DNA of 64,000 bases, taken from positions 248,001 through 312,000 of the forward strand of contig NZ_CANKXW010000005.1 in the NCBI RefSeq assembly GCF_947487805.1, read 5' to 3'. The translations under genes and the position numbers were made by a program. This stretch comes from an uncultured Tateyamaria sp. (GTDB lineage Bacteria; Pseudomonadota; Alphaproteobacteria; Rhodobacterales; Rhodobacteraceae). Shown one piece after another: positions 7,193 to 56,430 of this stretch. Position 1 is the stretch's first letter; each line of letters opens with the position of its first letter. The notes beneath the pieces are model-generated. The model was not told where the DNA came from. It did not search any database and saw only the letters and a list, made by a program, of their open reading frames with translations.

Positions 7193-7732
7193 TCAGAGTG
7201 TCGCGGCAGGTGCCTGCGGCACCGCGACCAGCCCCAGCTTGCGGGCGGCGGCGATGGACAGGGTGCTGCTGTTGATGCCTTCGGCGGCCTGATAGCGGCG
7301 TACGGCCGCGCGGGTGCGCGGATCCAGCGCGCCGGTGATCGGGCCGGAATAGTGCCCGCGCGCCTCAAGCGCGCGCTGGACCGAGGACAGGAAGTCTGGG
7401 GTGAGGGCGTCGGCGCAGATCACCTCGTACCAGTTCTCGCGCCGCGGCTCGATCACCTGTTGCTGATCTTCGCTCTTGTAGATCGGGGCGGCCTGCACGC
7501 GGCCATCGCTGCTGATCTGTGCGGGCTGGAGCAGCACCTTGCGGGTCACGGTCTGGACCACGGCGGGGGTGACCGTCTTGCCCCAGCAGGTGCCGGGCGC
7601 CGCGCCGGGCGGGGCCGTGGCCAGCGAAATCGGGTCGATATTGGCGTTGGAGGTGACCACACCGTTGGGGGCACAGCCCGACAGGGCAAGCGCCGCCACA
7701 ACTGCGGCGGAGGTAAGAATGTGACGTGTCAT
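7193..7732 (-). CDS. Lipoprotein with C-terminal peptidoglycan-binding domain
   Basis: A 179-residue envelope protein. The N-terminus is a lipoprotein signal peptide with lipobox LSGC, so C20 is the likely lipidated residue. The C-terminal part (about 110-170: LSSVQRALEARGHYSGPITGALDPRTRAAVRRYQ) is a peptidoglycan-binding type 1 repeat, which recognises the cell wall. The middle part contains two cysteines (in GTCWGK and VICADA) that could form a disulfide. The predicted job is to tether the outer membrane or a complex to the wall. It converges on the Do protease gene, separated by that gene's terminator. Confidence 0.82.
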   Translation of the reverse strand: MTRHILTSAAVVAALALSGCAPNGVVTSNANIDPISLATAPPGAAPGTCWGKTVTPAVVQTVTRKVLLQPAQISSDGRVQAAPIYKSEDQQQVIEPRRENWYEVICADALTPDFLSSVQRALEARGHYSGPITGALDPRTRAAVRRYQAAEGINSSTLSIAAARKLGLVAVPQAPAATL

Positions 7733-7794: not shown

Positions 7795-8223
7795 TCAGCG
7801 GGCGCTGCGGCTGTCCCATGTGTCGGTGCGTGCCTCTGCGGCCACGGCGCGCCCGGTGCCCTGGGCCAGCAGCTGATCCAGCAGGGGCGAGATGTCCTCG
7901 ATGTCTTCGGCCAGAACATGGGTGACATTGTGGGCCCGCTGCATCCGCCCGGTCACCCGCAACATGCGCCCGGCCACAACGGCGCGGCGAAACCGTTCGT
8001 AGATGTGGCGCCAGACAATGATGTTCACGACGCCGGTTTCATCCTCCAGCGTGATGAAGATGACGCCCTTGGCCGTGCCGGGACGCTGGCGCAGGATCAC
8101 CAGACCGGCCACGGCGACGCGTGCATTCACGGGTGGCGCGCCCAAGTCGCAGGCCCGCAGGCAGGCCGGCGGACGCGGCCAGGCCTGGCGGGGTTTTGCG
8201 GTGGGGGCGGTGAGGACCTGCAT
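7795..8223 (-). CDS. DnaE2 C-terminal OB-fold remnant under SOS control
   Basis: A 142-residue protein whose central part (ARVAVAGLVILRQRPGTAKG, then VIFITLEDETGVVNIIVW, then a segment ending HVLAEDIEDISPLL) is the OB-fold nucleic-acid-binding domain at the C-terminal end of the error-prone polymerase DnaE2 (normally over 1000 residues). No polymerase, PHP or finger domain lies upstream; the next gene is on the other strand. The ATG at 8223 directly follows a LexA box and a promoter that would start transcription at the A of the ATG, so there is no Shine-Dalgarno sequence. It may be a pseudogene left by a deletion or a domesticated SOS gene that binds single-stranded DNA. The intact reading frame and promoter favour a working gene, but this is inference. 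Confidence 0.75.
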   Translation of the reverse strand: MQVLTAPTAKPRQAWPRPPACLRACDLGAPPVNARVAVAGLVILRQRPGTAKGVIFITLEDETGVVNIIVWRHIYERFRRAVVAGRMLRVTGRMQRAHNVTHVLAEDIEDISPLLDQLLAQGTGRAVAAEARTDTWDSRSAR

Positions 8224-8225
8224 AA

Positions 8226-8240
8226 GAACAAAGATAGAAC
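8226..8240 (-). promoter_or_regulatory. LexA box (GTTC-N7-GTTC)
   Basis: On the minus strand the bases read GTTC, seven bases, GTTC, the direct-repeat SOS box known from Rhodobacter, Caulobacter and other alphaproteobacteria. It begins 3 bases upstream of the start codon of the DnaE2-tail gene and overlaps its -10 element, a position where LexA would block transcription until DNA damage. Confidence 0.85.
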
Positions 8241-8258
8241 ATATGCGATCTGTCGCAA
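8231..8258 (-). promoter_or_regulatory. Promoter of the DnaE2-tail gene, probably leaderless
   Basis: On the minus strand TTGCGA (-35, 8258-8253) and TATCTT (-10, 8236-8231) are separated by 16 bases. Seven bases after the -10 comes the A of the ATG at 8223, so the transcript would begin at the start codon. The LexA box spans the -10 element. Confidence 0.6.
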
Positions 8259-8346: not shown

Positions 8347-8672
<326 letters not shown>

Positions 8673-8673
<1 letters not shown>

Positions 8674-37369: not shown

Positions 37370-38011
37370 ATGCAACGGATTCTGAAAGGCGCTGCTGCGC
37401 TGGCGCTTTTGGCGTTTTCGGGTGGCCTTGCCACGGCGGAGACATCGGTGGACAGCACGGCAAACGCTTTGCAAAAAGCCGAGGAACGCGGGTTGAACGC
37501 GGTCCCTCCGCAGCGGTTGAGCGAATTCCTGTCCGAACCGGCCGAAGCGTCTCAGGTGTCCTTTACCCGCAGCTGGTTGAACGAACAGCCCAATGCGTCG
37601 GGCGGTGCACAGTGGCGGTGCCTGAGCGAGGCGCTCTATTTCGAAGCGCGCGGCGAGACGGTCAAGGGCCAGTTCGCCGTGGCCGAAGTGATCATGAACC
37701 GGGTGGCAAGCGCGCGCTTTCCGTCTTCGGTTTGCGGGGTGATCAATCAGGGTACGGGCCGCAAGTATCAATGCCAGTTCACCTATACCTGCGACGGTGC
37801 GCCCGAGACGATCCACGAGCCGCGCGCCTTTGCGCAAGTGGGCAAGGTCGCGCGCACGGTTCTGGACGGTCGTGCGCCGGACCTGACGAACGGGGCCACG
37901 CATTACCACACCACGGCTGTTCGCCCTAACTGGGCGCGGGTCTATACCAAGACCGCCAAGATCGGCGTGCACATCTTCTACCGGCACACGTTCCGCACCG
38001 CGTCGAACTGA
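37370..38011 (+). CDS. Cell wall hydrolase (SleB/Hydrolase_2 family)
   Basis: A 213-residue exported protein with a signal peptide (about 1-23). The C-terminal half has the SleB-type catalytic region: RCLSEALYFEARGETVKGQFAVAEVIMNRV (glutamates are the likely catalytic residues), YQCQFTYTCDG and NGATHYHTTAVRPNWAR. SleB-like enzymes cleave peptidoglycan glycan strands. The N-terminal half is a low-complexity linker. It could help wall turnover during growth or division. Its start is preceded by ACCTGGGG; a 149-base upstream gap after the PPDK-like gene should carry a promoter, but none is clear. Confidence 0.86.
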   Translation: MQRILKGAAALALLAFSGGLATAETSVDSTANALQKAEERGLNAVPPQRLSEFLSEPAEASQVSFTRSWLNEQPNASGGAQWRCLSEALYFEARGETVKGQFAVAEVIMNRVASARFPSSVCGVINQGTGRKYQCQFTYTCDGAPETIHEPRAFAQVGKVARTVLDGRAPDLTNGATHYHTTAVRPNWARVYTKTAKIGVHIFYRHTFRTASN

Positions 38012-55487: not shown

Positions 55488-56111
55488 TCAGAGATCGGTA
55501 TAGGCCACTGACGGCTCCGGCGTAAGGGTGCGTCGCTGCGCCGTACCGGAGGCGAGGTCCTGCCGGTAAAGCTTGAGCAGCCCGCGTGTCCCGTCAGGCA
55601 GGGCCGCAATCTGGCCCAGAGTGCTGTTGCCGCCCGCCTCGGCGCGGAGGTAGGACGTGGTCAGCAGATGCTGCTGAAACGTGGTTAACGTCCCGGTGGC
55701 CTCATAGCCCATATACCGTTGGTAATTCGAAATCGCGCTGCGTGTCTTGGGGCCGACGCGACCGTCCACAGTTCCTGCATCAAAGCCGAAATAGGTCAGC
55801 GCCGACTGAATCTCGCGACCTTCGGTGGTGGCGGGGATGCTGGGCCGATAGGCTTTCTTGGCGGTGTATTTGCGGGGCTTGGGCTTGTAGGTCGCCGTCG
55901 GGGCGGTGGCGCGGGTGCGGGCGCGCTGTTGCTGCTGGATCTGGGCGTCGCGTGCTTTCTTCTTGCGCACCTCTTTCTGGATGATGGCACCGGCGACACC
56001 GCCGATCAGGGCACCGGTGATGAAATCCTTGCCGTCGGCGGCAACGCGGGTGGCGGGGACGAGGGCGATGGCGGCCACGAGGGCGCCGGTTGTCAGTTTT
56101 GGCAGACGCAT
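55488..56111 (-). CDS. Exported peptidoglycan-binding protein
   Basis: A 207-residue exported protein: signal peptide (about 1-25), a glycine-zipper segment (FITGALIGGVAGAIIQKEV, about 30-48), a long Gln/Arg/Lys-rich linker (about 49-95) and a peptidoglycan-binding type 1 repeat (about 100-150; IQSALTYFGFDAGTVDGRVGPKTRSAISNYQRYMGY). It probably spans from the outer membrane to the wall. It lies between the DUF2244 gene and ctaD; it may be transcribed after ctaD but the 319-base gap holds a terminator. Confidence 0.82.
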   Translation of the reverse strand: MRLPKLTTGALVAAIALVPATRVAADGKDFITGALIGGVAGAIIQKEVRKKKARDAQIQQQQRARTRATAPTATYKPKPRKYTAKKAYRPSIPATTEGREIQSALTYFGFDAGTVDGRVGPKTRSAISNYQRYMGYEATGTLTTFQQHLLTTSYLRAEAGGNSTLGQIAALPDGTRGLLKLYRQDLASGTAQRRTLTPEPSVAYTDL

Positions 56112-56430
56112 TGGAATGCTCCTTTGGCTGTATCAGGGTGCGCAAGGGGGCACGTGTTCGGGCAGCGTGGTCCATGTGCGGCACACTCGGCATATGGGAC
56201 GTTTAGCGGGGCATGAAACCGCGATAGCGCCGCGCGCCCTAAATGGGCGGCAATCTGCACGTTTCTCGGCGCGAACAAGCAACGAACCGCGTGTGACGTC
56301 GCGCTGTTATTGCATAGCAGGCGGCAAGGCGCCGTGATTCATGACCCGGACTGGCCACACGACCATCGCCAAATAAAAAGGGCCCCGGTCGCCACCGGAG
56401 CCCTGTTTCAGTTTCATGTCTCAGACCGGG
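56112..56430. other. Intergenic stretch with the ctaD terminator, no gene seen
   Basis: No supported reading frame was found here. The minus-strand terminator of ctaD lies at 56375-56403. The remainder should contain the promoter of the peptidoglycan-binding gene, but no convincing -35/-10 pair was identified. Confidence 0.6.
56375..56403 (-). terminator. Rho-independent terminator of ctaD
   Basis: On the minus strand GGGCTCCGGT pairs with ACCGGGGCCC (one T-G pair) around a GGCG loop, followed by TTTTT. It lies 27 bases after the ctaD stop. Confidence 0.88.

Follow-up and report, generated by a model that had tools for sequence, protein, structure and literature searches.

In the split lineage described here, the DnaE2 chain stops after its (HhH)2 region and before the C-terminal OB-fold, which is encoded by a gene of its own at the fdx locus. 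One such gene lies in the window, the whole 64-kb stretch of DNA that was analyzed. The split, the co-occurrence of its two halves, their boxes, the locus and the selection on the gene were all observed, and we consider it probable that the OB gene encodes one of the two halves of a divided translesion polymerase, a half that would work with the OB-less DnaE2 and/or ImuB in trans. Because the split is natural, spans dozens of genera and has its own SOS-type promoter, the role of the OB-fold becomes testable through a small gene, with no engineered truncation. With the OB gene, a likely mutasome subunit comes into view that annotation easily overlooks. The features of the locus are:

7193..7732, minus strand: conserved downstream neighbour of the OB gene (26 of 52 stand-alone OB loci), its product presumably lipoprotein-like
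7795..8223, minus strand: stand-alone DnaE2-tail OB-fold gene, 142 aa (NF004225 and PF01336 profile matches; AlphaFold model)
7891..8118, minus strand: OB-fold domain, residues 36-111 (PF01336 stretch; core common to full-length DnaE2 OBs)
8167..8181, minus strand: WPRPP arm, residues 15-19 (consensus of stand-alone copies, not of full-length DnaE2)
8226-8240, minus strand: LexA box GTTC-N7-GTTC, GTTCTATCTTTGTTC (perfect; 2 nt before the ATG of the OB gene)
8231-8236, minus strand: putative -10 element TATCTT within the LexA box (from sequence)
8253-8258, minus strand: putative -35 element TTGCGA (from sequence)
8350..8673, plus strand: fdx, conserved divergent neighbour (48 of 52 stand-alone OB loci), its product taken by us to be 2Fe-2S ferredoxin-like

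The stand-alone OB gene, its promoter and its locus

The minus-strand frame at 7795-8223 comprises an ATG start, 142 codons and a stop. Its product matched the end of the NCBIfam DnaE2 profile NF004225 (E=1.1e-30, profile about 945-1041 of 1047) with 106.5 bits, far lower than the whole-protein cut-off of 939 bits, as for a part, and residues 36-111 matched the Pfam OB-fold PF01336 (E=1.8e-12). The initial annotation had recognized the OB-fold of the DnaE2 end in this frame, and the similarity to DnaE2 was confirmed by these profile searches. The OB domain was the only Pfam domain found; the 142-aa protein gave no PHP, Pol3 alpha, finger or HhH domain in the profile search, did not contain the SRDF[H/R] C-terminal motif, and scored E=0.041 against PRK07275 (14.1 versus 254 bits).

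The box carries the GTTC-N7-GTTC operator of the alphaproteobacterial LexA (SOS) regulon. A perfect box was present upstream of 56 of 59 stand-alone OB genes (L032, L102 and L111 lacked it), against 2 of 554 background ORFs (mechanical ORFs of at least 200 aa in related loci). The box count within the window alone is unsurprising (three matches versus 1.68 expected, with at least three in 21 of 100 shuffles); significance comes from its retention in the orthologues. The first in-frame start codon stood 1-3 nt past the box in 48 of the 56 boxed genes, the TATnTT positions inside the box were each kept in 44-50 of the 56, and the first three -35 positions (-18 to -16) were T in 51, T in 28 (G in 26) and G in 44. 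This -35 and -10 geometry, conserved in orthologues, would place the transcription start at about the ATG, and leaderless transcription is predicted. Both the box directly before an intact frame and transcription starting at the ATG had been proposed from the window alone. The box and the frame are upheld by the orthologues, in which intact frames and conserved boxes were found rather than random frameshifts. No expression record for the OB gene under DNA damage was found in the published literature searched. The two extra matches in the window may be chance, given the expected number; one (56273-56287) lies ~160 nt upstream of a 207-aa ORF (55488-56111, minus strand) and the other (37484-37498) inside ORF 37370-38011.

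Further neighbours over the 52 stand-alone OB loci were degP (36), hflC (32) and hflK (31). In none of 21 relatives, 18 of them with full-length DnaE2 and three with no DnaE2, was an OB gene found within 1.5 kb either side of fdx. One origin offered in the initial annotation was the fusion of an SOS promoter to the end of dnaE2 by a deletion. Such a deletion at this place does not fit with the OB-free fdx site in all 21 relatives, with the position of the OB gene at its own fdx site or with the polymerase body, which survives on another contig (C4). The stand-alone OB of G083 (L074, contig C42) is located away from the fdx locus, and in it a long insert separates the WPRPP arm from the OB; it has a box, and an ancestral-type HPRDQSKLLF tail like that of full-length relatives.

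The OB-less polymerase and the distribution of both halves

Searching the genome of the window with NF004225 returned the window ORF (profile 944-1041), DnaE1, a weak match (E=0.009) and a frame on contig C4. The last of these covers profile positions 3-938 with 1211 bits (over the cut-off) and then ends. It encodes 990 aa with PHP, DNA_pol3_alpha, finger and HHH_6 domains and no Pfam OB, which in a full-length DnaE2 used for comparison (G004) lies at 1035-1109, and it contains the stretch PPDIDVDF, which we take to be the polymerase active-site motif. The polymerase, PHP and finger domains and imuA and imuB, correctly reported as missing from the OB locus, were all found elsewhere in the genome, with imuB on contig C3 and imuA on C2 (ImuA scored 41.1 versus 150 bits against NF033429, under the NCBIfam cut-off). 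A full imuA-imuB-dnaE2 cassette had been suggested as something to look for; all three genes exist, but they and the OB gene are dispersed over four contigs (C2, C3, C4 and C5), with no contiguous or two-part cassette. A perfect LexA-type box precedes imuB, another ends 16 nt before the start of imuA, and a box with one mismatch, GAACAAAAAGTGAAT, begins 52 nt upstream of dnaE2. Four separate genes, each with a LexA-type box in front, here take the place of the usual operon. The arrangement resembles the ImuA-ImuB-DnaE2 mutasome in these three boxed genes and in the homology of the OB to the DnaE2 C-terminus; it differs in lacking an operon, in making the OB a separate protein, and in the SRDF[H/R] tail, reported for about 77% of DnaE2s in the part of PMC3919608 available to us and found at the end of none of 58 OB-less DnaE2s, that of this genome included.

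Those 58 came from a survey of 149 Rhodobacteraceae genomes, evenly drawn and one per genus, in which OB-less DnaE2 ending near profile position 938 was found in 58 genomes, in one frame in 57 and in two frames in G013; G035 encoded a full-length DnaE2 besides. Stand-alone OB genes were identified in 60 of the 149 (59 in the main set plus G083). Left out of this count were three frames ending in SRDFH (L115, L116 and L119, from G091, G021 and G095), L086 (G009), which is probably a full-length gene that spans the two ends of a circular contig, and L127, which duplicates L012. Both halves occurred together in 56 genomes, that is, 56 of 58 with OB-less DnaE2 and 56 of 60 with the stand-alone OB. 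Three further OB carriers (G061, G068 and G118) have DnaE2 pieces on small contigs, and the about 100% complete G051, which keeps the OB and imuB and in which no DnaE2 was found, is the only one of the 60 without a DnaE2 trace. Conversely, no OB was found in G044 and G064, which have OB-less DnaE2, even when the family profile was used, nor in G098 and G142 (each 84% complete), which have pieces of DnaE2. The missing OB of G044 is possibly an assembly gap; that assembly is without a close fdx orthologue (best 43% identity). In G064, the 222 bp upstream of fdx contain no box, which 39 of 41 relatives have within 205 bp; the absence may be a true loss, and a mere contig gap is weakened as an explanation by this boxless stretch. 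The G064 contig (C75, L274) ends upstream of fdx, at the expected site of the OB gene, and its end resembles what we take to be the start of a transposase.

An independent set (GTDB r220 loci, best 80 of 562) gave a similar picture. Among these best 80, 49 loci were called stand-alone by script, 43 of them with a box in the tested interval, and the other 31, called full or full-fragment, all lacked one there. Of the six boxless stand-alone calls (L192, L193, L227, L209, L214 and L216), L192 and L193 lie at contig edges, L193 with a box 107 bp from fdx, and L227 is a piece of a full-length DnaE2, so that L209, L214 and L216 remain. The 31 include L217, called full by frame length yet without DnaE2 similarity, from an uninformative genome that yielded neither DnaE1 nor DnaE2 intact; L217 is probably a stand-alone OB without a box. 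The genomes behind 20 of the stand-alone loci all contained both halves (20/20). They comprise 14 named species, three isolates assigned to genus, one to family and two MAGs, and include Ruegeria, Roseovarius, Mameliella, Tropicimonas, Pelagimonas, Nioella, Gemmobacter, Palleronia and Maritimibacter. Roseovarius dicentrarchi has both halves and a full-length DnaE2. Ruegeria atlantica HKCCA5752 (G326, the genome of L244) combines a full-length DnaE2 and a stand-alone OB with an OB-less DnaE2 that carries an internal deletion, the last on contig C12 as a 551-aa open frame that covers profile positions 4-404 and 829-938 and misses the middle; perhaps DnaE2 replacement is in progress there.

A class-wide search for a stand-alone OB, made with profile A1, covered 152 genomes. 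Outside the family, all 66 matching genomes have at least one match in a frame of at least 894 aa, a criterion of frame length only. DnaE2 similarity lay beside the OB in 18 of 18 loci fetched from other families, and the short OB frames of G219, G208 and G193 were accompanied by long ones. When eight DnaE2-free genomes were tested for imuB, four gave no match and four only matches of 28-31% identity. On plasmids, 821 records matched; among the 25 listed, most were annotated as 'error-prone DNA polymerase' and one, in Kozakia, as an OB-fold protein. Among phages there was one matching record, at 32.5% identity.

The OB-less dnaE2 genes are themselves preceded by boxes, with at most one mismatch within 120 nt upstream in 56 of 58 (L075 and L120 being the exceptions), 19 of them perfect, against 38 of 390 (5 of 390 perfect) for background ORFs of the same loci. 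A one-mismatch LexA-type box, often GAACAAAACGTGAAT, recurs upstream at 37 of the 58 loci and may be a conserved operator weaker than that of the OB gene.

Selection, structure and the history of the split

The stand-alone OB gene is under purifying selection. The comparison of substitutions in orthologues, advised in the initial annotation, gave dN/dS of 0.14-0.32 in 14 of the 15 closest pairs and 0.50 in one, and the median pN/pS over all pairs was 0.45, with 0.37 in the core and 0.75 and 0.93 at the two ends. Conservation in the core followed that of 80 full-length OBs (rho 0.69). W15, P18, P19 and D116 were strongly conserved in stand-alone copies only. The WPRPP arm was well kept in the 59 stand-alone OBs (W15 90%, P18 95%, P19 100%), and at the same positions the commonest residues in the 80 full-length OBs were R (99%), L (66%) and P (31%), in a linker whose alignment is less sure than that of the core.

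The AlphaFold model of the window protein has a mean pLDDT of 83.4 and a pTM of 0.71. In a Foldseek search, the first rows were CST and RPA OB folds with tRNA synthetases behind, and no Pol III alpha chain was found among the 50 rows listed. CST and RPA are separate OB subunits that work with polymerase machines. The modeled likeness to them is a weak global match (TMq 0.37-0.54 among the rows listed), and it supports common descent no further than the OB superfamily. Profile A1 had no match among PDB sequences up to E=0.01, and a PDB search with the DnaE2 of this genome gave 10 sequences, all from chains named Pol III alpha or PolC.

A FastTree phylogeny built from 99 DnaE2 proteins with the OB left out (58 split and 41 of 60 full-length rows) placed the split rows on one side of a single branch with support 98, requiring one change, and with the drawn midpoint root the full-length side had G083 at its base. 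For the split label, the tree of OBs (80 full-length, 59 stand-alone) likewise required one change. A single origin of the split fits both trees. The HPRDQSKLLF tail of G083, together with HPR..R.F remnants at the ends of three OB-less DnaE2s (L072, L130 and L139), agrees with excision of an OB that lay between body and tail.

On a DnaE1 tree of 30 genomes, chosen by DnaE2 state, split, full-length and DnaE2-free genomes were interspersed (15 changes versus a shuffled mean of 14.8); therefore, DnaE2 loss or replacement happened repeatedly. The idea that OB-free genomes simply branch outside is weakened by these interspersed states. None of the 11 DnaE2-free and none of the 7 full-length-only genomes of this sample had the stand-alone OB, with G051 counted apart. 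A phylogeny-aware pair test yielded five concordant pairs, none discordant and one without difference (p=0.0625), and 3/0/1 without four long rows (p=0.25); by this measure the co-occurrence of both halves is suggestive only.

A probable two-part polymerase and competing explanations

Should the OB gene be one half of a split polymerase, DNA damage would lead RecA to trigger LexA cleavage, and all four boxed genes of this genome would be derepressed together. Translation of the leaderless OB mRNA would then supply a protein that re-associates in trans with OB-less DnaE2 and/or ImuB, perhaps through the lineage-specific WPRPP arm (a guess as regards docking) and the C-terminal helix, and that would provide the ssDNA-template contact presumably made by the covalent OB in other DnaE2s. 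We counted against this reading the OB of G051 without DnaE2, the unpaired G044 and G064, the DnaE2 pieces without OB in G098 and G142, the p value of 0.0625 and, for the predicted model, the absence of Pol III alpha chains from the 50 Foldseek rows listed. A more far-reaching version is possible, and we offer it tentatively: DnaE2 in a large roseobacter-type lineage may be an obligate two-chain polymerase, with a catalytic chain and a detachable SOS-controlled OB subunit docking by the newly evolved WPRPP arm, in which the supply of the small ssDNA-binding subunit would switch mutagenic synthesis. If so, it would be a natural test of the role of the OB domain in C-family polymerases.

The initial annotation had offered, as its other option, a stand-alone DNA-binding protein made after DNA damage. 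The gene is indeed stand-alone, conserved, selected and behind an SOS box; the matching OB-less DnaE2 in the same genome was not foreseen. An independent SOS ssDNA-binding protein (or ImuB/RecA partner), uncoupled from a DnaE2 that works without an OB, would account for G051 and for the Ruegeria atlantica strain, whose OB is accompanied by a full-length DnaE2, the only OB-less one being internally deleted, and it would suit the lineage-specific arm and C-terminal helix and the predicted resemblance to CST/RPA chains. It is nevertheless unlikely given co-occurrence in 56 of 58 genomes, with G051 alone among 60 devoid of DnaE2, and given that the constrained core residues are largely those of covalent OBs. 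It seems very improbable that the chromosomal DnaE2 first lost its OB and that the OB gene was then recruited from another DnaE2, such as that of a plasmid cassette. Full-length DnaE2 genes do occur on roseobacter plasmids (among the plasmid matches listed), and the available part of PMC9426580 describes a D. shibae imuA-imuB-dnaE2-type cassette on a 126-kb plasmid, but one change for the split label on both trees fits one event, with the order of steps left unset. Plain decay, that is, a dnaE2 relic kept by chance beside an SOS box, could point to the truncated look of OB-less DnaE2, to the Ruegeria atlantica copy without its middle and to the two frames in G013; given that the frame is open in dozens of genera, that dN/dS stays well under 1 and that the locus and the box-start spacing are conserved, we give it almost no credence.

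OB-less DnaE2 is already known, and the separate OB gene is without an earlier report that we found. The part of PMC3919608 (Nucleic Acids Res. 2013) available to us describes several DnaE2 sequences without OB domain and CTD and a covalently carried OB domain detected in at least 97% of C-family polymerases, and it mentions no stand-alone OB gene, gene fission or Rhodobacter. Those DnaE2s share the missing OB with ours. Split cassettes and stand-alone ImuB-C domain proteins are described in the accessible portions of PMC3765255 and PMC6511836; the latter, like the OB gene, have a single mutasome domain in a gene by itself within SOS contexts, but they derive from the ImuB C-terminus rather than the DnaE2 OB and are found in operons. 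No report of a split DnaE2 or a stand-alone DnaE2 OB gene, and no test of the role of the OB in DnaE2, was found in the mostly open-access journal literature searched.

Additionally, recurrent C-termini were seen in both halves. Stand-alone OBs of part of the family end in RAGDQP or RAADQP (e.g., L097, L103 and L184). The OB-less DnaE2s of L069, L080, L125 and L153 end in TRSNPD, TRGNPD, TRGNPD and TRANTD, possibly a new C-terminal motif replacing SRDFH.
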